A stretch of 64,000 bases of DNA from Nymphaea colorata. Its lineage: Eukaryota; Streptophyta; Magnoliopsida; Nymphaeales; Nymphaeaceae. Below are positions 2,061 to 64,000 of this stretch, in pieces. The stretch's first letter is position 1. Every line of letters starts with the position of its first letter. The notes beneath the pieces were generated by a model, which worked only from the letters and a program-made list of their open reading frames with translations, had not been told where the DNA came from and did no database searches. The stretch spans positions 935,001-999,000 of the forward strand of contig NC_045142.1 in NCBI RefSeq assembly GCF_008831285.2. Direction: 5' to 3'. Made by a program: the position numbers and the translations under genes.

Positions 2061-2931
2061 AAGATCAACCCCAGCGTGGGTCTCAAATACACACTATATT
2101 ACAAAAAGAGTGAATTTGAGACATGATTGGGAGGAGCCGAGGAGGGGTTGGTCCGGTTGGACCTCAAAATTGTGGATCTCAAGTTTGTGGTAATCAAACA
2201 CAGGCATTGTGTCCTTTTTTCTTCTTACTTTTTAGATAGTCGAGGGTTGTAATGTGTATTAACATCTATCCGAATTTAAAGATAAATTTTACTCCAAACC
2301 AACATTCAATTGGCACTCCAAATGAAAATTTTTTCTCAACTCCAAAGCTAATTTATATTAGTCTACATGGGAATAAGTGTATGAGCAGATTTTTTTTTTT
2401 TTACCAACTTGAAAATGCAAAAATATTTCTTTTTTGTTTTTTTGTAAAAACTAAGTTTCATAAAAACCAAGTATTTTAATGAGTTTTAGAAACTTTGTTT
2501 TTCTTGGTTGGTGACACATCCAAAACATGATGTTTGAATAACCCAAAAGGGATCTAGTTTTTCACTCCTTTTTATAAAACTAGTTTTTTTTCAAAAACTA
2601 GTTTTTTTAAAAAAAAAACTCAATTTTGATGGTATCAAACACTTCAAAAACCTAGTTTTAAAGTGTCATCCAAACGCCGCCTTTATAATTTATAAAAAGA
2701 GACATTTTACTTTTTTTATAATTCTCTTTTGAGTGTTAAAGAACTAAGAAGTGCTTGTTGAAAAAAGAAAAAAAAGTTGTGATATTTAAAAGTTGCTTAA
2801 TAAAAAGACAGTACACCCTTCGAACACACATATCTGAAATATACATTTTAAAAAACATTAATATTTTTAATTTCAAACTTTTCTAAATTTAAGAACATTT
2901 TAAACAAATTAAATTGCTACGCTGTGGGCCC

Positions 2932-4653
2932 ATGGCGATCTTTTCCGCGGAAAAATATTTCCTTTTCCTGCCGATGCCAAACGCATTAGTTAGAACAGAA
3001 CGCATCATGGCAGGGATGCCGGAAGGCTACCGCCGAACTCTCTCTTTGCTCCAGCGAATGGCCAAATCTCCACCGCAGAAGTCTCTTCTCGTCCTCCACT
3101 TTGCATCTCTCGATGGTGGCCTTCACCACTCCCACCATTCAGCAGCCACCCTCCTCTTCCTCCTCCTCTCCTCAAACAACTTCCAACAATCAGAGTCTTT
3201 CATCCATGACATCGTCTCCGGCAAATTCCCGCGCCCCCTCACCCTCTCCTCTATCCTCAAGCACTTCTTTCCTTCAAAGAAAGAGCACACCAATCTCACC
3301 CAACTTGTTTTTGACATGATTATCAATGCACAATCTCGATTGGGCATGGCTGATTCAGCTTTAGAGACCTTCGATAAGATGGTTGACCTTGGATTGACGC
3401 CTAAACTGAGTACCTTTAATAATGTGCTTGGTGTTCTTGTCAATGTTGATAAGCTTTCTGAGGCTTCGAGAATTTTTGATAAGTTTGGCGGGAGGGTGGG
3501 TGTGGATGGTTTTACTCTTGGTGTTATGGTCAGAGGCTGTTGTAAAGCTGGGAAGATGGATAGTGCAATGAAAATTTTACCCAAGTTTGGGGAATTGGGC
3601 CATAGGCCTAATGTGATCATATACACGATTCTGATCAATGGTTGGTGTAAATCTGGCAATGTTGGTGAAGCGAAACGACTATTTCGAGAGATGGAAGAGG
3701 AGGGATTTCCCCCTAATGAGTACACCTACACTGTGATGATCAATGGTTGTATAAAGAACGGAGACAAAGACGGTGGTTTCGACCTTTACGCGGAGATGAG
3801 ACGTCGCGGAGTGTTGCCGAATCTTTTTACGTACAATTCCTTGATTCACGCGTACTGCAAGCTTGGCAGATTGAAGGAGGCCTTCCAACTGTTTGATGAA
3901 ATGGTAAGTGAAGGAGTTGTTCCGAACGTTGTGACTTATAACACTGTCATATTCGGGCTGTGTCAACGACGTAGGGTCTCGGAGGCTGACAGGTTCATGA
4001 ATAGAATGCAGAACAGCGGTTTGGTTCCTAGCGTTGTTACGTTTAATACACTAATCGATGGGCTATGCAGAGAGGGGGAGTTTGTAAAGGCACTGAGGAT
4101 TTTGGAGCGGATGAAGTCGAGTGGTCAGCCACCATCTTTAGTGACGTATAACACTCTCATTTGTGGTTTCTGTCGTTCTTCTAAATTAGTTGAAGCTGCA
4201 AAACTAATGGAAGAAATGCAGTCAAGGGGATTAGTGCCTAATAAGGTTACATATACAATTCTTATAAATGCTTTTGGAAGGGAGAACGACATGGATAGAG
4301 CTTTTGAGTTGTTTGATTCTATGGAGAAGTTGGGAATAGTGGCAGATGTTTATACTTATAATGTGTTATTACACAGTCTCTGCAACCAGGGGAACATGAA
4401 GGATGCTTGGAAGTTGTACAATGTGATGCTTGAGAAGCAGTTAAAACCCAACGACGTCGTCTACAATACACTAATAAATGGTTACTGTAAGCAAGGAAAT
4501 TCGTATAGGGCTCTAAGGTTGCTTTCCAAAATGACTGAAGATGGCATGGTTCCTAACGTTGCCAGCTATATCCTGACTATCAATTGTCTTTGTCTAGAAG
4601 GCAAAATCAAGGAGGCTGAACATCTGTCTGATGAAATGAAGAAAATGGTATAG
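2932..4653 (+). CDS. P-class pentatricopeptide repeat (PPR) protein, intronless
   Basis: Single open frame of 573 codons from the first ATG (2932, good CCATGG context); later in-frame ATGs at 2974 and 3007 are possible alternative starts. From about residue 130 it is built of roughly 13 consecutive 35-residue PPR motifs of the P class, seen as recurring VTYNTLI..LC..G...EA..L...M...G..PN blocks. No E, DYW or SMR domain is visible. P-class PPR proteins bind specific organelle RNAs, one repeat per base, and act in processing, stability or translation; most are imported into mitochondria or chloroplasts. The N-terminus is rich in R, S and L with few acidic residues, which fits a transit peptide, but the organelle cannot be decided. 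The overall form resembles At1g09680-type proteins. The frame stops inside the last motif, and the missing motif residues continue in another frame just downstream (see 4646-4720). Confidence 0.93.
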   Translation: MAIFSAEKYFLFLPMPNALVRTERIMAGMPEGYRRTLSLLQRMAKSPPQKSLLVLHFASLDGGLHHSHHSAATLLFLLLSSNNFQQSESFIHDIVSGKFPRPLTLSSILKHFFPSKKEHTNLTQLVFDMIINAQSRLGMADSALETFDKMVDLGLTPKLSTFNNVLGVLVNVDKLSEASRIFDKFGGRVGVDGFTLGVMVRGCCKAGKMDSAMKILPKFGELGHRPNVIIYTILINGWCKSGNVGEAKRLFREMEEEGFPPNEYTYTVMINGCIKNGDKDGGFDLYAEMRRRGVLPNLFTYNSLIHAYCKLGRLKEAFQLFDEMVSEGVVPNVVTYNTVIFGLCQRRRVSEADRFMNRMQNSGLVPSVVTFNTLIDGLCREGEFVKALRILERMKSSGQPPSLVTYNTLICGFCRSSKLVEAAKLMEEMQSRGLVPNKVTYTILINAFGRENDMDRAFELFDSMEKLGIVADVYTYNVLLHSLCNQGNMKDAWKLYNVMLEKQLKPNDVVYNTLINGYCKQGNSYRALRLLSKMTEDGMVPNVASYILTINCLCLEGKIKEAEHLSDEMKKMV

Positions 4654-9800: not shown

Positions 9801-12184
9801 TTTCCAGTAAGGTTAGGTCTTTTGGGAGAGTGACAGGGAAGATTAATCAGAACATTTCAGAAACTATTCTTCTTTATTTATATGCCTGTTTCTGGACGTG
9901 GTACAATAATTTGATCCATACATATATAGAAGACTGAAGCCTTGCAATCAGCTGCCTGACTGTCCAAGTAGTTGTGCCAAACCTATATGAGACTAAAATG
10001 TTACGAATGGATTCCAGGGCACCATAGGTCAAATAGGTGGTTTCAAGACTAGGTCATATTTTTTTTCCTGTTTTTTTTTTCTTTTTGCTTTTAACTCATA
10101 ATCAAGCTTGTTTAATCTATTAACAAAATAAAGATATCTCTTTCCTAAGGTCCAAAAATGTTCAAAAATTGTCAATGAACAAGTTCCATACTTTGTATCC
10201 CTGATCCATTACTATTGTTTGGATACTTCATGAGCAATGGGTGTGTTATTGATTGATGTGCCTGTGTGGGTTACTGAAGTTGCATGCTGAAGGAGCCACA
10301 CTAAAATTTTACTCTGGCTTGGCTTATTTAAGCTAGATTTGAGTTTCACTTACATATTATACAAGTGAAAATAAATATCCATGTTTGTTGTATATTTTTG
10401 TTACAATATTGCTTTCCTTACGTTATATACATGTCCAAATAAATATCCATAGCTATGTTTATTATGTTACAACTAGCAATAAATATAGTACATGATGCTA
10501 CACGATATAGGATACATGTCCAAATAAATATCCATAGTTATGTTTATTATGTTACAACTTGCGATAAATATAGTACATGATACTACACGATATAGGAAAG
10601 CCATGCAAGACAACCTAAAAACTACCTTTGCTGCAAATAAGGAAAAAAAAAATTATTCGATGGGGCCAAAAAACTAAAAAGACTTAAGAGTTACAGAGAG
10701 AAAGAGCGCCTCGTGACACTGTCTATGGCTGTATTGACCACCATGAAAGAGATATCAATCAATCCACTGGTACCCTTTACTTGAATATGCACACACATAT
10801 GGAGGGAAGGAGAGAGAGATGCCACAGTTATTACAGTGGCCTCCCTTTCTTAATATATTTGTAAAGAAAAAGGACAAAACATGCACCAGATATAACTAAT
10901 ACGTAAGGACTAGTTACCAAGTCAGTCAATTAGACCATAATAATGGACCACACTAATTTTAACCCATTGGATTTGGTCGATTGACTCCCAACTTGGTCAA
11001 CTAGTCCATGGTTTGACATAAAAGCTAGACAATATATTCTAGTTTATTGCTTTTGCCTACTAGTAGAAATTTAAGCCACTTCCAGTAGCTGGACTTTCTT
11101 TGTTTTTTTTTTTCTTGTAGCAATTGCAGAATAATTATTTATTCTGCAAGAATTTTTTTTGAATTGTTCATTATTAAGGCTTTGTATATTGAAGTACTGC
11201 AGTCAGTCAACATTTCATTTTTCTCTCTTGAAATGGTCTATTGCATTGAGTTGGTTCTTTAAATGTATTTTAGGTGGCATAATCACTTAAACCCTGCAAT
11301 CAAGAAGGATGCCTGGACAAAGGAGGAAGAGTTAGTACTCATTGAAGCCCATAGAATACATGGAAACAAATGGGCTGAAATAGCAAAAGTGCTTCCTGGA
11401 AGGTATTGATGATAAGCTATGTCTTAATATGCTTGCAACTCTGTCACACGGATACTTGAGTTTAGCCCACGTACCCGTATCCGATACGTGGACATGCATA
11501 TCCGGATACAGGACATGGCTGGTACACGCCAAAAAATAAACTATTAGTTTAATGTTTTTTTTTTTCATTTTATCTTTTTTTGTGATGCATCTAATTATTT
11601 TCATGAACAATCCTTTCAAATACTCGGCACTTCTGTGATAAAACAAACTTTTTTATAAGAGTGAACTATTAATTTAATGTTTTTTTTCATTTTATTATTT
11701 TTGAGAATATAAAATTTGCCGTATCTGCGTATCTAAAATTTTCAAAATTGCCGTGTCCGTACCCGTATCGTACCCGCACCCATGTGACATATGCTTGCGG
11801 CAGGCAATGTTATTTCTTGATCTGCATTAAGTGTAGTCTTAAACATTAGAGTGGTTCTATCATTGTAAGATCTCTTATCATCATGGTGCTACTTTGATGT
11901 CTTGACTGTTGACTAGCTTTTTGTTAATCATTTATAAAGCAATTGTCATCAGAAAGGACAAGTCATGAGTGTACGGCTGTGTGCATACTGGAATAAGGTG
12001 CTTGTCATTGTGTTATGTGTTTTGTAGGCAAATAAGAACAACAATGAAATACAATGGGAAAAATGAGAAGAGAAAGGAGGGGAAAATCCAGCAATACATG
12101 ATTATGGCAATAATGTACTTCTTATTAACTACCACTGGCCATCTTGCTAAAAGCTATGTCATACAGGTGTGAGGTGTGGTGTGG

Positions 12185-12246
<62 letters not shown>

Positions 12247-15200
12247 CTTGTCATTATACAACTGACAGGTTGCAGACTAAGTAACATGGACCTTTCACAC
12301 AAGTTGCTGCACCTGAGTCAACATGACTTGGGGTGTGGATGCCGCTCAAGTGTAGTGTGGGTGCAGCACTGGACAGTTTGCACACTTTCTCAATGAATCG
12401 TTGATAGAATAATTGTTAGTTTGTTCAGTGGATGCCGCTCAAGTGTAGTGTGGGTGCAGCACTGGACAGTTTGCACACTTTCTCAATGAATCGTTGATAG
12501 AATAATTGTTAGTTTGTTGAACAAACTAACAATTATTCTATCAACGATTCATTGAGAAAGTGTGCAAACTGTCCAGTGCTGCACCCACACTACACTTGAG
12601 CGGCATCCACACCCCAAGTCATGTTGACTCAGGTGCAGCAACTTGTGTGAAAGGTCCATGTTACTTAGTCTGCAACCTGTCAGTTGTATAATGACGAGAA
12701 TACAACCTTCTGTACATTGTAATACCCAGTAATGTGCTTGTGAATTTAGGTACATTTTGCATTGAGGGGGCCATGGCAATTTATGCAGCAAGTGCAACCA
12801 AAAGCTTTAGGAGCAATATTCGACATGAAGTTCCTGGACAAGTTTGGGACCACTTGTCTCCGTGAATATCAGAGACCATTTTATTAATGAAGAGTCCATT
12901 CCACAAAATGCTTAGTCCACTATTATGAGTCAATTTGTCTCGAACAGCACCATCTTAGAAACAATTTATGAGGTACAGAGTCGTTGCACAATTGGTGACA
13001 AGAGACATGAAATACTTTTGTCTCTTATCAAAGAGCATTTAACACCAAATTTCATGTTTCCAGAACATTATACAAGAGCAGACCAAATTCTAGTTTCCCA
13101 TGTCAATTTAGCATGTCTCTGTAAAATGGTCCTACGGTTGTCATCCAAATAGGGATGTTACATTGTTTTCACAGATAACTGGTGGAGATCAGACAGTGGC
13201 ATGGATCACGTGTCATCAAAGAAAATGTATGGAAATGTTCATTTGTTTCTTTTTGTGAGAGCTACTCTTGCATTGAACTGGCAGCTTAGGAAACCTAGCC
13301 AGACATATGACATCTGTGACTAGCTATTCTAGTTCCTGGTTTGTATCATGCATAATGATAGATCAGGTGAACTAATCACTACAGAATTTCGTGGTGGGTC
13401 GTTCTTTACGGTAGTTGATAGGTCAAACTTGTTGAAAAATGACATTTTAAAGAAAGACACGTTTCTGAATGATAAGATCATATACTAGTTTGGAAAGACT
13501 ATTTGCATTATAATATTCTGATCATTTACAAAATTGAAATGCTATCTTTAGCCTAATCATATTAACATCTTTTGTTGTCCAGGACTGACAACTCAATAAA
13601 GAATCATTGGAACAGTTCCTTGAAGAAAAAGGCTGGTATGTATATAGCTGGGCACTCGATGTCAGCTATAGCTTCAGATATACATGATGCATCCAAGAAT
13701 GTAACTGGACTGGCTAATGAGGAGCTAAACATAAAGCCCATGTCTATTTCTATTCTCAGTACACAAAATGGGTCCAAGAATATAACAGAATCACCAACTG
13801 AAGCATTAGATATAAAACTTCTACCAGCTCTCATGTCACCTATGTACGATGGATCTGCAACAAGGTCAACTGGCGACATTTTTACCATAAAACCAATATC
13901 AGCCCTTGAGTTGGATAGACACGGTGGATCAAGCAACCTGGTCCTAACAGCCTTGGAAGATTTGCATATAGATCCTGTATTTGCTTGTGTTTCAGCTGCA
14001 AATGATGAGGCTAAGGATGTAGAGAAACCATCCAGAGAAGAAATGGTTGGGGAACTGATTCCAAATCTTGATGCAAGGATTAACCGTGGTTCTGAGAATG
14101 CATCAATACTGTCCAATGGAGATCTGAAAATAAGTTCAGATCTAGATACTTCCAGTATAGATCAAGCAGTATCCATCGTCACTCAACCTGCTGACCTATC
14201 GGCAAATGCAACTCAATCAGACAGTGAAGGCAAGCAATCTTCAAACACAGGGACTTGCTCTGATGCAGTATCCCCACCTGCTGGCCGGTCTGCAAAATTA
14301 TCTGGGTCTGAGAGTAACGACAAGCACAAGTTGGAGTATCCTGCAACAACATTTTCTGGCTGGATATTGAAACAACTTGCAACACTTTTTCTTAGCAAAG
14401 ATAGCTTTTCAGGTGCTATAGACAGAAAACAACAGCCCTGTTTAGATGATTCAGGGCCCCAAAAAACTAAATTTGGTCTCTGTTACAGTAAAGCAAGCTC
14501 AAGAAACAAGTCAGGAAAGTACTCCACAGGAAGTGGCATTGATCAAGCTAACAATAATTCTGAAGTGACAAATCTTGCCTCAGTTGTAGATGATGAAATC
14601 AGTCAATCCATGGAAATTTCTGAACCAGGCAATCATGTTGGGATCCCTTCGTCAAGCTTGTCGTGTGTGGAAAAGAGTAATAATAATCAAGCCAATGACA
14701 TTATGGAAGAAACACATGACGCTACAGAAAATTCATCTTGCAGAATTTCTGAAACAATATCTCTTGCTGAAATCCCATTGTCTAGTTTGCCATGCCTAAG
14801 GGATGGTGAAGCCAATCAAGTGGACAGGAACATCGAGTCCTTGAGTCGTGCCAACTTTCCATGTACATTTTCTTGCTACCAGTCTCCTGGTTCAGCAAGT
14901 AGGAAGGTGCCTGCAGATTCCAGCCTCTTTGATGCCACTGAATTAACTCACCGACAGCAGATGGCTGCTTCACCTGTTTATGGGGTTACTGCTTCAGTTC
15001 TTAAACGCAATGATCTGGTCCTCCAAAGTCCAGAATCTGTACTGAAGGAGGCAGCTAAAACCTTTACAAACACGCCCTCTATTTTCAGAAAAAGACGGAG
15101 AGAAAATTCTCCCATGGACTTTAAATGGGGCGAGAAGATATTTGGAAGCAAAAACGTGCAGGAGAGCCCACTGACTCCTAGTGAGGGGAGCCAAACCACG

Positions 15201-36400: not shown

Positions 36401-39400
36401 GTGTGTCCAAAATAGGAAGTATATGTCTATAACATTCTTTCATTGCAGATACTGCTGAGGGAAACTGTGGGAATTGAGCCTCTGATATCAATTTTAAAAC
36501 TTCGGAAAGGCAGTGCTTATAACTTTACACAACAGAAGGTGCGTACATGTCCAATTTCCTAGTTGTTTACCACTTTTATCATGTACAAGATTTCTGCAAG
36601 TGCCAACCTAAAAGAAAATCACCTTCCAGATGCTACCTTTGGAATGGTGGCATGTGCAGTTCATTGCCCAGCAAATTTTAAAGTGTCTGTTTGCTTTAAC
36701 CTGCTGCATTAGTTTTTGCTTCACCACATTGTTTAACAGCCTTCAGTTTTGTCATTTGATAGCAATTAGGGATTTTTACTTTATCTGGATATGTGTTTCC
36801 TTGATCAACTAAGTTTGCATTTTGTTGTACAATAATTGATATGTCAGTAGACAGTGAACCTGCTCAGTGTATTAGAAGCCATTAGATTGCTTTTGGTGGG
36901 AGGTGCTGAAGCAGATGCTGCAAAAGATGTAAATAGAGTGACAAATCAAACATTTCTTGCACAGGTAAATTTTTTTATCGTTATTTAACGTTTCATTCAG
37001 GACATGATTTTACCCTTTTGTTCTTTTTTGCATGTCCCAGAATAAGGTGCTGGACTCCCTTTTGATGTTAGGGGTTGAGAGCAGGTGGGCTCCAGTTGCA
37101 GTTCGCTCTTTGGTGAGTACATGCTTTTGACAATTTGTTTTCCAGTACCGGGAAAACTCATGCTATCTGGTTCATAATTAATCAAGTCAAGAGCTTGATG
37201 TTTATATTTTGCAACAGCAAACGTGTCTGCACCTTGTTGAATATTTTGACAAGTGGAAGCAATAATGTTTTATTTTAGGTAATATTAGGATTTTAATTGA
37301 TAAGCACAAATTCAAAAGGATATTCTGATGGTGTTTACCAAATAACTAGTCATAGCTTGTCCTGTACTTGTTACGAGGTAAGTGGGGAACTTCTAATGTT
37401 CCCTCTCTTAGATTGTGAAATATGTAGCAGTTTAGCTGGTTATGTTTAATAAGCGACTGCCTTAAGTTATATTTGCTAGGGGAATGGGATCAAATGGATA
37501 TGAAGTAACATTGTATCAGCATTAATAGATAGAGATGTTCCTTTTTTAGCCTTAATGCTGATTTTAGTGATTGTAAGTAAAAGGTATAAGGCACTTGTAT
37601 AAGATGTGCCCTATTAAATATGTTAATAAATGAGCTATTGTTGCTAAAAACAGGATATCCCCTTATGTTCACAGAGTATGATTTAGGTCCAAGGGGCAAT
37701 ATATACCAATGGGCATAAACTTGTAATTCACATGTATGACATAGATATTAAGAGGTATGCGAAGTGTCAAATTATACCATAGTGGATAATCCAACGGATG
37801 TTTTGGATAATGCTTCTGTAGTGATTGTTGCTTCCTGTATTAATTGGTTGTCATGCTTTGAAGTAACTGTTGGAAATGGTGTCATTACATTTGTATTATA
37901 GTCTGCTCTTCTGTGCATAAGAATGCCTGTTTTATTTTGTCATAAAAAAATCTATTTCCTTGGTCAATAAGTGGTTTTCTCCTCCCTGTTGTGAAAAATT
38001 TCATTGTTGTACAACATCGGTCCGTTTTGCTCATCTGAGCGACACATTACTTATAGCCTCCGACTCGGCAATTACTTTTTCTTTTTCTTTCAAACATCCT
38101 GATTTTGTACTTTTTTTCTAGGCACTGCACTGTATCGGTGACTTGATTGCTAGACACCCACAAAACCTTGATGCAATTGTCCGTAAACTAATTGGAGAGG
38201 AGCCACACGCAGAGCCTGCGTTGAATGCTATTCTTAGAATTATTTTACAGACTTCTGATATTCAAGAGTCAATTGCTGCTGACTATGTCCTAAAATGTTT
38301 CTGTGAGGTAAGATTATCGTGGACAATTTCTGCTTGAGTACTACTTTTTTTTTTACATCCTGTTGCCTGCTGCTGCTAGTTTGATGCACTGAGTTGGTAA
38401 CTTTGATATTTTTTGATCCTTTTTATGCTTGCTTGTACGAGTGCCATTCATAAGCTTGTCAAATTCTGTCAAGTCATTGGTTTGAGTTTGACAGCTTGAA
38501 TCTTTCAGTACTTATGTCACACGTGTGCCAAGTTATGGACATGCAAAAAATTGGGCTCACACATCCACACAGATAATATTTAAAACGCTGGGGCACACAT
38601 TGTGTTTTCTGGCTTGTGCTTCCTCAAAAGAAAATTTTGAAAATTCACACCACAAAAGTTATTTGGTTTGAGACTAAGCTAATGAAGCTACGAATTATGA
38701 CTGACAACACCAAGCTCGAGGTAGGTCAAGCCAATGTATTTGGTTGACTGTACTTGTCATTGCCTATGTGACACGGGTACGCCAGTTTTGCCCACGTACC
38801 CGTGTCGACACGTGGGTACGGCTGCTTTGAATTTTGAGATTTTTCTTTAATTTAACAGTACCTAAGAGGAAAGGTTTCCTCCCTTTTTTCTTTAATTTTT
38901 GAGATTTTTTGTAGATTATAAGACTATTAATGTTTTTTTTTCATTTTATCATTTTGAGAATTTAAAAATTTGCCGTACCCGCGTGTACCCACAATTTTCA
39001 AAATTGCCGTACCTGTACCGTACCCGCACCCATGTGAAATAGGACTTTTTTGAGGTGTGCAACATTAATGTCACTTATAAAGTTCTAAGGCTTAAAAAAC
39101 ATGATTTTTGATTGATCGATTGTCGTTCTTTTTGTCTATCTCAGCAGATAGACCATGCCAGATGCATACACAGAAATTTATTTGCAAAAGAGCAGTTAGA
39201 AATACCTTGTGTACATTCATTTTTCATGTATTTGCTGGTCCACACACTCATCTCTCTCTCTCTCTTTCTCTGTGTGAATAATCAGCATGGCCTGGCTGAG
39301 TTGACAAGTTGGCTGATGTGATTATTCAAGAAGTGCTAATTCAAAACCACTTTTATGGGCCTTTTAAACCTCCCCTTAAAATACTGAGGTACCTCTAGTC

Positions 39401-42400
39401 TCGGCTGTTCTTGAGATACTGAGGTACTTCTAATTAAGGTCATTCTTCCTCATCAAGGCATTTCTCCATCAATTCTCCTGTCTCGAGCATATGACTTGAA
39501 TTTCTGTTTTTGCATAGCTCCTTCATTGCTTACTATAAAGTATAAAGAAGGTTTTGGAATTTCATACACATTTTCCATAACTTTTAGCAGGGATGCATCA
39601 TACTTTTTGTCTCCTTTCCTAATTTATAATTTTATATATATTACTTGATTAGTTTCCACTTGACTTGTCTTAAGTTTTATCCTCTTTTTATTGCTTGAAG
39701 TAGAGGAATCCAGATGGCCAGGCAATCTTAACGTCCACGGTGAACCCTCAATCTTCAATTAGTGCCCATGATGTCCTTGATAAAGATGTTCATATTCCAT
39801 TTGGCAGGTTGGTGCTTATTTTTCCCTCAATGAGAGCTGTGTTTGTTTTTTCTCTTTCTCTCTCTTCTTTTAATGTATCTTCAAAGGTTTTGCAATGGAA
39901 AAACTCATTCATTTTCCCCCTTTCCATTTTACAATTTGTGAATTGTGTTAGAGCATATAGACAGCCAATAATTTTTGTGTGCTAACCGCCCTTACTTGAG
40001 CTGGAAAATTTTCTCTTTAGTGCATGTCCATATCTGCGAATTTTTCATATCTTTTAGTGCGATTACCGTGTGGTTTATGTTTATGCTGCGTGTAACATTC
40101 GTTCTTTCATTGGAACAGCATGCTACTGCACAGCCTTACAGTATGTGAATCTGAGAATGATCTTGAGGTAATGGCATTACAAAAAGTTGATCTTCTCTTG
40201 TGCTGAATGTACAAATTTCTAAAATGATGTAGGTTTGCATGTCATAATGTCTTTCTGTTACTTTGTTTAGTTAAGCTTTATTGAGCGTCAAGTCCACACT
40301 TCCTATCCCAGCTTGAGAGTGCATTGTTTAGGTCTTTGAACCTTTTGCTGAAATTGTAATGAAATTCCTGTTTGACAGAAAGGCCTGTTTATATTGCAAG
40401 AAATTTCTATAAATTTGACTAATGCGCCTCTCTGACATGCATAGTAGTTTGTTTGTGTTCTTGTGCCTCAGCAATATAATGGATCATCGCATCTCAGTAG
40501 TAACTTAAAGCCTCATCTGACCAATTTTTCTGTGTTACAGAGGCTAGATAAGAGATATTTATTAAAGTCTCCAAAATTTTTCTGCTTTAAATCTCTATAG
40601 GACTTGTCAGTGCATCATGACAATCAAACTGCTTTTTTTTTTTTCATGAATAAAACAAGCTATCTTTCTATAAATCCGGTGGTAGAATCTAATATAAAAG
40701 AAAGTTCTAAACCAAATGCGGAATCTTACGAACACAAATGCAGACCAAGCTTTGCAATTTGAGCCCCTAATATAAAAGAAAGTTCTAAACCAAATGCATA
40801 ATCTAAGGAAGACAAATGCAGATCAAGCTCTGCAATTTGAGCCCCCTTGTCTGCAGTCCATACAGGTGGCTTAATTCCTTCTCTTGGAACTCTACTTCGA
40901 AGTTTCCTGCCTTTCAGCTCAGCCAACTCCGGTTTTGGCTTACGTTTTACCAAATGCAGACCAAGCTCTGCAATTTGAGCCCCTAATATAAAAGAAAGTT
41001 CTAAACCAAATGCAGAATCTTAGGAACACAAATGCAGATCAAGCTCTGCAATTTGAGCCCCCTTGTCTGCGGTCCATACAGGTGGCTTAATTCCTTCTCT
41101 TGGAACTCTACTTCGGAGTTTCCTGCCTTTCAGCTCAGCCAACTCCGATTTTGGCTTACGTTTTTGTTTATCATTTTGGTTGGGCCACGATGCAAGTTCT
41201 TTTGTGCTTGGCTGACGGTGTATGTGAAGTGTGCCCCAGTAGGTATGAATATGAAAGGAGGCATAAATGAAAAGCTGACCTACTTGATTCTTTTTAACTC
41301 TTATTCTCAGAGACTCAGATGCCAATCTAACTTGTCATCCTAAGTGGAAAAATTTCATCTTTCTCATCATGTTTCTAATGCTAGGAATGCTTGAATTACT
41401 ATGACCAGTGGATAAGCTATAACTTTTCACTAAATCATGCATTGAAAATTAGCTAAAACTCTTTTTAGAAAATGGTAAATAGCATAAAGGTTGCATTTGA
41501 AATCTAGAAGCATGGTTCCTTGTGTAGTTTGAAATTTTGAATGCATTTTTGAAATAGTTTATCCATGTAGTTAGCATGTGCATGTTCTTTGCATATATTT
41601 TATGCTGCTCAAGCACAACCTGTTTTTAGGACCTTTATCCTGCACTGATTCAAACATGTGAAGCTGGATTGAGCCTCCAGATGGCATCTTATCTGACTTG
41701 AGATGAATAAATTGCTGAAATTTTGGACTGGCTTGAACTTGTCAACCTGGGTTCATGATCTTATGCATCCATGTCTTACTATATATTATTTTTGAATTGG
41801 CTCGTCAAAATGTTGTTTGTGTACATCCCTTTTTCTCAACAATTCAGTGAAAGAGTCTTCTTTCTCCAAGAAAAGAACAAAAGACAATGACAGCGTTTCT
41901 GGTGCTGGACTCTTTCTTGCAGATATGTTGCAGGGCTGCTAATGTTCTTTCTCATCTTCTGAAAGATAATTTGCAATGCAAGGAAAGGGTATGTGTCCAA
42001 TGAGGCCTGTAATTCCTCTCACTTATTTTCTGTCTGGTATTTATACCCATTTATTTTAAGATATTTGCAATGGGGTTCTTCACTTAAAATGAGAAAAAAT
42101 TCTTTGAAATTAGAGAACAAACTGAACTCGTGTGAGGATTTATTTTACACTAATCTGACTACTATTATTCTTTGTGGATCTTTTCATGGGCCATCATGGT
42201 TGTTTCATCGAATCTTAATTGAATGTAATCTGCTGCACAAATTCAGTGCTTGAAACCAAAGACTGTTAGGTGTTCATCTAGTATTGAAAGACCAAAGTAA
42301 ATTTGAATTGGATATGGTCATGAATTTGGTTTATTGTTTCCATGGTCGTGTGCCATTTATCCCATATTGACTTTAAATTTCTTAATTATAAATTTTTTGC

Positions 42401-54071: not shown

Positions 54072-54672
54072 TTAATGGATTGGGTTAACCAGGAAAAGTT
54101 CTTGAGCAGGGACTAAATGCATTCTGCAATTAACTTCAGAATCTCCCCACAAGAACTTAATCATAATTTCTTCAAGCTTCTTGATTACAGAAATCAAGTA
54201 CTTCAAGACCATAAACCAATAGCAGCGCAGCACAACAATCACAAATTTTAGGAGACAAAGTTTTCCTGCATATGACAGCATATGAGATTTCCATTGATTT
54301 AGGCGATTCTGCATCTTCAACACAACCCGATCCCAATCAGCTGTTGAGAGACGTAAAAGAGATGGTGGGAGGCCTAGATATTGCGTGGGAAATGAGCCCT
54401 GAACCCACCCAAATTGATCACTAATTCCTCTCATTCTTTGTTTTGACAAAGCAAAGCCAAAGACGTTTGATTTGGACTGATTAATGTGCACCCCAGCAGT
54501 CTTCTTAAATTCCTTTAAAAATATTCTAGATGATGCAAAGATCTCTTGGATGCTTTAACAAATATGAATAGGCCGTCAACATACATGGTAGCTGATAATG
54601 GCTGACTCAATCTTTCTTGAAAAATTTTCAAGAATCACCAAGAGGTATGGGGACAGAGGGTCCCTTGACAAA
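54072..54672 (-). pseudogene. LINE (L1-type) reverse transcriptase relic
   Basis: On the minus strand, a 139-codon frame (54491-54072) carries HINQSKSNVFGF, QYLGLPPSL, WDRVVLKMQNRLNQWK and LSYAGKLCLLKFV, then IKKLEEIMIKFLWGD. This is the well-known region after the catalytic core of plant L1-like reverse transcriptases (normally ...YLG.P.........W..L..K....L..WK...LS.AG...L). Further upstream on that strand, in other frames, follow DPLSPYLLVILENFSRK and YVDGLFIFVKASKRSLHHLE, relics of the DPLSPYLF and Y/F-x-DD boxes. The second aspartate of the catalytic pair is changed to G and frameshifts separate the blocks, so it is dead. Confidence 0.85.
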
Positions 54673-63100: not shown

Positions 63101-64000
63101 ATTGTTGAATTCAAATCATTTTGTGGGTCAAGATCAGTGGTCTTATCTGATCTAGAAATTGTTGGATTTGAACTTCGTTGCGAGATAGGATCGATGGTCT
63201 TATCTGATCCAGAAATTGTTGAATTGCATATATTGTTCATACGAACCAGCGGTCTTATCTGATCCGAAATTGTTGGATTTGGGATATGGTTGTGCTATTA
63301 GCCTGCCAACATTATCTAAAAACAAGGCTGTGAAATCCTTTGAACACGCAACCCTCAGTTCGACCACGGCTGCGCAATGCAACAAATCAAGTTGCTACGA
63401 AACGCAAACTGTTAGATCTCTAGTTTTCTCCCTCTCTCCCTCTCTCTAAATCTTCATCTTTTTCACCTATCCACCGAAGACCACGATCTCCTTTATCTTC
63501 GACAATTGAAACTTGAAGAAATTTCTTCAACCAACCTTAGAGTTGAGGTATTTCCGATGGATATTTAAGGACTTCTTCAAAATTGTTCTTAATAACTCCT
63601 TTTTTCACTTGATCGACATCTCAATGCCAACAAAGAATTCATCACCTCAAGTTTTCCATTCAAATCTCAACTCCATTCACCATCGTTTAAGGAACTTATA
63701 ATATATCTCCATCTGCCTGATATTGACTTTGATTTCACATCATTTTTCTCTTAGATCATCAGATGCCTGTCCACTCCAACATATCTCCTTCACGAGCGTA
63801 ATCCCTATTGCAAGTTTCATATTCGCACGCCAATAACAAGCGGACAAAGGAATAATACATGAGTCTAAGACGTACTAATAAAGCAAGACCTCATTTTCAA
63901 CATCCACATCAATGTTCATCAAATCCATTTGCAATCACCAATTCAGATCATCCTAGAACCCGAACCTTTTTTTTCATAGTAAATGTGCCTTATCAAAACC
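60120..64000. repeat. Large tandem array: 55-57 bp sub-repeats within 0.64 and about 1.28 kb units
   Basis: Over 20 copies of a short unit with the core GGTCTTATCTGATC occur, in places spaced 57 and 55 bp (63139, 63196, 63251). Many carry GATCAG and CTGATC separated by 9 bases, a small inverted repeat. These blocks sit inside larger units. CATAGTAAATGTGCC recurs at 62695 and 63975 (period 1,280), with an earlier copy (CATAGAAAATGTGCC) at 60763. CGACAATTGAAAC recurs at 61596, 62233 and 63500 (637 and 1,267 apart). Each large unit also has a pyrimidine-rich segment (CTCCCTCTC...) and a unique-looking stretch. The array continues past the right edge. No transposase or known satellite family is recognised. 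Confidence 0.85.

Follow-up and report, generated by a model that had tools for sequence, protein, structure and literature searches.

Introduction

Several groups of fold-back elements that reside at microsatellites have been described. MuTAnT elements of Medicago are Mutator-like and target TA microsatellites (PMC4486113). The type copy is 292 bp long and forms a foldback of four similar segments with nearly identical arms of 144 bp, although the mean arm of the family is only 47 bp and its usual size is 200-300 bp. Copies within introns or UTRs account for 36 of the 218 reported, the number of terminal Gs ranges from zero to four, the tabulated copies carry TA repeats at both flanks, and copies located outside perfect tracts show 9-nt duplications (PMC4486113).

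The Ac-mMITE-1 and Ac-mMITE-2 families of pineapple comprise 28,426 and 24,588 elements, respectively, and Ac-mMITE-1 measures 510-570 bp with arms of 140-180 bp (PMC8449440). A microsatellite is present on both sides of 15,361 of the 21,994 full-length copies, and one-sided copies are also reported. Their first and last bases are mostly GA and TC, and 9/10-bp duplications accompany 1435 copies (PMC8449440). Five of the 15 gSaTar families tabulated in another report are 380-440 bp long with arms of 120-180 bp, and many of the gSaTar copies at microsatellites have no target-site duplication (PMC5907723). According to the same source, gSaTar and rSaTar elements (including rice Micron) are multi-copy, and the arms of some families resemble autonomous MULEs (PMC5907723). 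Micron elements are described as widespread in Poaceae and Rosaceae and rare elsewhere (PMC12550479).

Here we describe a 460-bp fold-back element (12243-12702) in an intron of a MYB3R-type gene, located in the 64-kb stretch of DNA that was analysed as a whole (the window). We judge that the element is most likely a MITE-like DNA transposon of the snap-back (foldback) type, young and non-coding, which inserted beside a (TA)n tract, and give this interpretation, which an earlier sequence-only reading of the locus did not name, a probability of about 0.6.

Results

Host gene and intron

The intron interrupts the third Myb repeat of the host gene, and both flanking exon pieces belong to that repeat. 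The upstream exon ends with ...EIAKVLPGR at AG/GTATTG, and the downstream exon starts at CAG/G ACT GAC and encodes TDNSIKNHW. These exon ends, which were fixed by eye from the splice-site sequence, therefore define the intron as listed in Table 1. Pfam Myb_DNA-binding is matched by the upstream exon piece (E 3.3e-12), which passes the cut-off, and by the short terminal piece encoded downstream of the intron at E 0.14, which fails it. The gene is presumably a MYB3R, a name that we take from the repeat layout and characteristic motifs and that is the same as the one given in the sequence-only reading. Genes of the MYB3R class control G2/M genes.

Two other features were noted in this neighbourhood. 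A 586-aa frame for a PPR protein (2893-4653; Pfam PPR_2, E 8.6e-145) lies upstream of the MYB gene, and the two genes together point to a plant as the source of the DNA. The same MYB intron carries a dispersed repeat, in which 11439-11791 resembles 38764-39041 in two pieces with 81% and 83% identity.

Anatomy of the hairpin

Each of the outer arms spans 185 nt (12243-12427 and 12518-12702), and the two are reverse-complementary except at position 12249, where a T (TTCTTGTC) stands in place of the C found in the reverse complement of the other arm (TTCTCGTC). The 90-nt loop between them (12428-12517) is a direct repeat of the inner arm, such that segments B1 and B2 are alike at 91/91 nt with a start-to-start spacing of 93. 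Segment B2 also forms a second inverted pair with B', perfect over 91 nt and separated by a spacer of 1 nt. The complete layout reads A, B1+CA, B2, G, B', A' (Table 1), wherein the CA at 12426-12427 base-pairs with the TG at 12518-12519. With the (TA)n region (12181-12242) removed, exact inverted stems in the intron reach 178 nt, compared with a maximum of 18 when the remaining sequence was shuffled 200 times by single bases. A larger element with ends farther out was considered and was not adopted because the arms stop at 12243 and 12702.

Table 1. Coordinates of the fold-back element and its surroundings (window positions)
Feature	Position	Strand	Basis or remark
Host intron, GT..AG, 2180 bp	11403..13582	+	Exon motif translation, splice sites by eye, Pfam
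(TA)26 tract, possible insertion target or replication barrier	12190..12241	.	Tandem-repeat detection gives an array at 12190-12245
Segment A, outer left arm	12243..12334	+	Complementary to 12611-12702 except at 12249
Segment B1 + CA, inner left arm, 93-nt unit	12335..12427	+	12335-12425 identical to 12428-12518
Segment B2, direct copy of B1	12428..12518	+	Outer-hairpin loop (12428-12517) or left arm of the alternative inner hairpin
Segment B', inverted copy of B	12520..12610	-	Perfect 91-nt inverted pair with B2
Segment A', outer right arm	12611..12702	-	Inverted copy of A

A single base (A at 12242) separates the left arm from the (TA)26 tract. The right arm is flanked by CAACCTTCTG, which contains no TA tract, and it ends one base before a mirrored (TA)n would start. 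This right flank opens with CA, the dinucleotide that also comes next after B1. No 8-11-bp target-site duplication was seen, and flanks TATATATAA and CAACCTTCT differ. The outermost bases of the element permit a TA duplication (TA/TTCTTG ... GAGAA/TA), but this edge TA/TA lies inside the palindrome and beside (TA)n, and is weak evidence of target-site duplication. The sequence-only reading had described near-perfect arms of about 183 bp with one difference, a central direct copy in the order A-B-B-B'-A' and an adjacent (TA)n tract, all of which these measurements bear out with only small adjustments of length.

Copies and coding content

No second copy of the element is present in the 64-kb window, and no source copy of the arm, which the sequence-only reading had proposed to seek, is found there. 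The window contains 58 inverted pairs, and 23 of the 25 listed are matches between TA tracts. When low complexity was masked, the only other minus-strand self-matches in the window were two of 30 and 34 bp. A text search of the literature with four arm strings yielded no occurrence. Scans for exact arm patterns in viral contigs and prokaryote genomes gave 0 matches, which is uninformative because these collections include no plants.

Six stop-free peptides of at least 23 aa can be derived from the arms, and none of the six matched a Pfam family at E up to 10; two open frames near the element likewise match no Pfam family. A captured gene was considered as the source of the arms and was rejected on the result for the six peptides. 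The element is short (460 bp), is bounded by terminal inverted repeats (185 nt) and has no Pfam match, in keeping with the short, non-coding, inverted-repeat character of MITEs. Searches of the window for structured RNAs returned no Rfam match at the gathering score and 0 genes from ARAGORN.

Elsewhere in the window, a large diverged repeat region extends from 60129 to the window end at 64000, with direct matches of up to 1077 bp that are about 67-93% alike. Overlapping tandem repeats occupy 40689-41164 (a 78-bp unit present twice with 91% matches, and a 216-bp unit present twice with 96%), and a 160-aa open frame on the minus strand (54072-54554) resembles what we take to be a remnant of a LINE reverse transcriptase.

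Predicted RNA fold

The RNA of the element has a predicted minimum free energy of -380.4 kcal/mol, compared with -130.13 +/- 5.73 for 100 dinucleotide shuffles (z -43.7). Two hairpins are possible, as the sequence-only reading had proposed: the outer hairpin as written, with a predicted energy of -359.7 kcal/mol, and an alternative in which A pairs with A' and B2 with B' while B1 is bulged out (-346.9 kcal/mol). In a fold of 1200 nt of intron context, a check that the same reading had suggested, the hairpin stays intact and keeps 185/185 outer pairs, one of which is a G-U at the mismatch site. The outer hairpin is predicted to be favoured because of its lower energy and these retained pairs.

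Age and base composition

One difference per 185 nt means that the arms are of recent origin or that they underwent later conversion or homogenisation. The former had been proposed in the sequence-only reading and is backed by this count; the latter would also fit. The mismatch is a C versus a T before G, and therefore a CpG/TpG difference of the sort that methylated DNA gives, which counts toward the MITE interpretation. The G+C content of the arm is 0.426, whereas the flanking intron sequence has 0.352 and 0.365; the arm thus appears slightly foreign, which likewise counts toward a MITE. The arm has 2 CpG sites (observed/expected 0.24, versus 0.71 in the left and 0.34 in the right intron flank), a depletion that does not discriminate between the models.

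Discussion

A snap-back sequence that is long, near-perfect and located in a plant intron is more often a MITE, and several attributes of the locus count toward that interpretation, including near-perfect 185-nt arms without recognisable coding content, the position of the left arm one base from (TA)26, and the other dispersed repeat in the same intron (11439-11791). The fact that there is no second copy within the 64-kb window counts against it. Microsatellite-targeting MULE MITEs are expected to have 8-11-bp target-site duplications or tracts on both sides, neither of which is found here. The presence of (TA)n at the left side only counts against the element, although one-sided copies are reported for Ac-mMITE. 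The element has the appearance, and probably the mobility, of a snap-back MITE, and we name no superfamily because (TA)n is one-sided, an 8-11-bp target-site duplication is not seen and the copy is single in the window. The main rival, which we consider less likely, is a local inverted duplication produced by replication template switching, whose product would be single-copy and not mobile. In such a scheme, the fork would copy A-B-CA, slip back and recopy B, after which a strand switch would allow B'-A' to be copied back up to (TA)n; the fork would stall there and return to the original template. Inverted duplications made by template switching consist of a local inverted copy with short overlaps at the joints, and the present locus is like them in both respects. 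Template switching accounts for the right-hand joint slightly better than does a MITE. The right arm halts one base short of a mirrored (TA)n, as if stalled, and, given that CA both follows B1 and opens CAACCTTCTG, an ancestor ...GTTTGTTCAACCTTCTG... would therefore resume at its point of departure. The scheme also agrees with the placement of the single arm mismatch at base 7, counted inward from the outer edge, with the direct copy B2, which is compatible with serial switching, and with the lack of a further copy in the 64-kb window. However, three switches are required, the CA agreement involves two bases only and would arise by chance 1 time in 16, and insertion beside the tract would yield an identical left border. 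If the locus is a template-switch product, it offers a clean example of how a long hairpin can originate beside TA tracts, with joints that predict the ancestral sequence exactly.

Other explanations were judged far less probable. One of these, which we regard as very unlikely, is that part of a protein-coding gene gave rise to a young inverted-repeat proto-miRNA locus whose small RNAs would be directed against that gene. The extreme predicted hairpin is in its favour, as is the resemblance of the inner arm end (12518-12538) to a MYB exon segment (14540-14560) at 18/21 positions (3 mismatches), a match equalled in 0/60 single-base shuffles; the opposite arm would therefore be antisense to the host mRNA. 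However, an equal exon match was obtained with 3/400 dinucleotide-shuffled arms and with 2/212 real window slices (212 of 225 were used, and 13 with long TA runs were left out), and the exon was examined only after an unrestricted search had revealed the match. Moreover, the six arm peptides have no Pfam match, and no arm match in the window is longer than these 21 nt. We therefore treat the apparent match at 14540-14560 as a lead only, and consider the proto-miRNA idea to have little support because its only target-like match (21 nt, 3 mismatches) recurs in about 1% of controls. An assembly or library artefact (foldback chimera), which the sequence-only reading had raised, is less likely still. 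Chimeric reads can produce near-perfect palindromes, but a simple foldback read fits poorly because it mirrors everything outward from its centre, whereas here the mirroring runs for 185 nt to each side and no farther, and unique intron sequence continues to the acceptor site. The arms, furthermore, are not wholly identical, and the internal direct copy would be unexpected. We assign the lowest probability of all to the idea that serial template switching at (TA)n created a single-copy hairpin in situ and that siRNAs from this hairpin hit the mRNA of the host gene at 14540-14560. If this were true, the hairpin would be a self-regulating intronic proto-miRNA at birth, within a MYB3R-type pre-mRNA. 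A narrow literature search from 2018 on returned no match for a template-switch origin of miRNA, and one for foldback families likewise returned none.

The anatomy, the position and the predicted fold of the element are shown here. With a snap-back MITE as the preferred interpretation, we further infer a course of events in which a transposase supplied by some related autonomous element would bind the element ends and move the element in trans. The internal duplication (A-B-B-B'-A') would date from the formation of the element or after. Once in place, the element would be transcribed as part of the pre-mRNA, form a 185-bp hairpin and be removed together with the intron. Dicer-like enzymes may cut some of these hairpins to 21-24-nt siRNAs, which could in turn keep the element methylated. 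Such processing is plausible because MITE hairpins give rise to DCL3-made 24-nt RNAs, and such hairpins can turn into miRNA genes (PMC10004981). If the element is a MITE, it represents another young intron insertion and a possible siRNA source at a MYB3R-class gene.

Comparison with known elements

The element shares with the MuTAnT type copy its long near-identical arms and foldback modules, and with the family a border at a TA tract and an intron location, and is unlike it in having TA on one flank only (PMC4486113). MuTAnT is also multi-copy (218), whereas the present element is single in the 64-kb window (PMC4486113). Its ends do not start with G, in which it differs from both MuTAnT and Ac-mMITE, but this is a weak objection because the terminal Gs of MuTAnT range from zero to four. 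The resemblance to Ac-mMITE-1 lies in a similar size and arm length (460 bp and 185 nt here) and in (TA)n, which some copies of that kind have on one side only, and the difference in ends other than GA and TC and in the lack of a visible 9/10-bp duplication (PMC8449440). Five gSaTar families are like the element in size and arms, and the frequent lack of a target-site duplication in gSaTar copies at microsatellites would fit a locus where no 8-11-bp one is seen (PMC5907723). As compared through published descriptions, the layout of the element appears to resemble those of Micron, MuTAnT, SaTar and Ac-mMITE, and elements of its kind are already known in plants.
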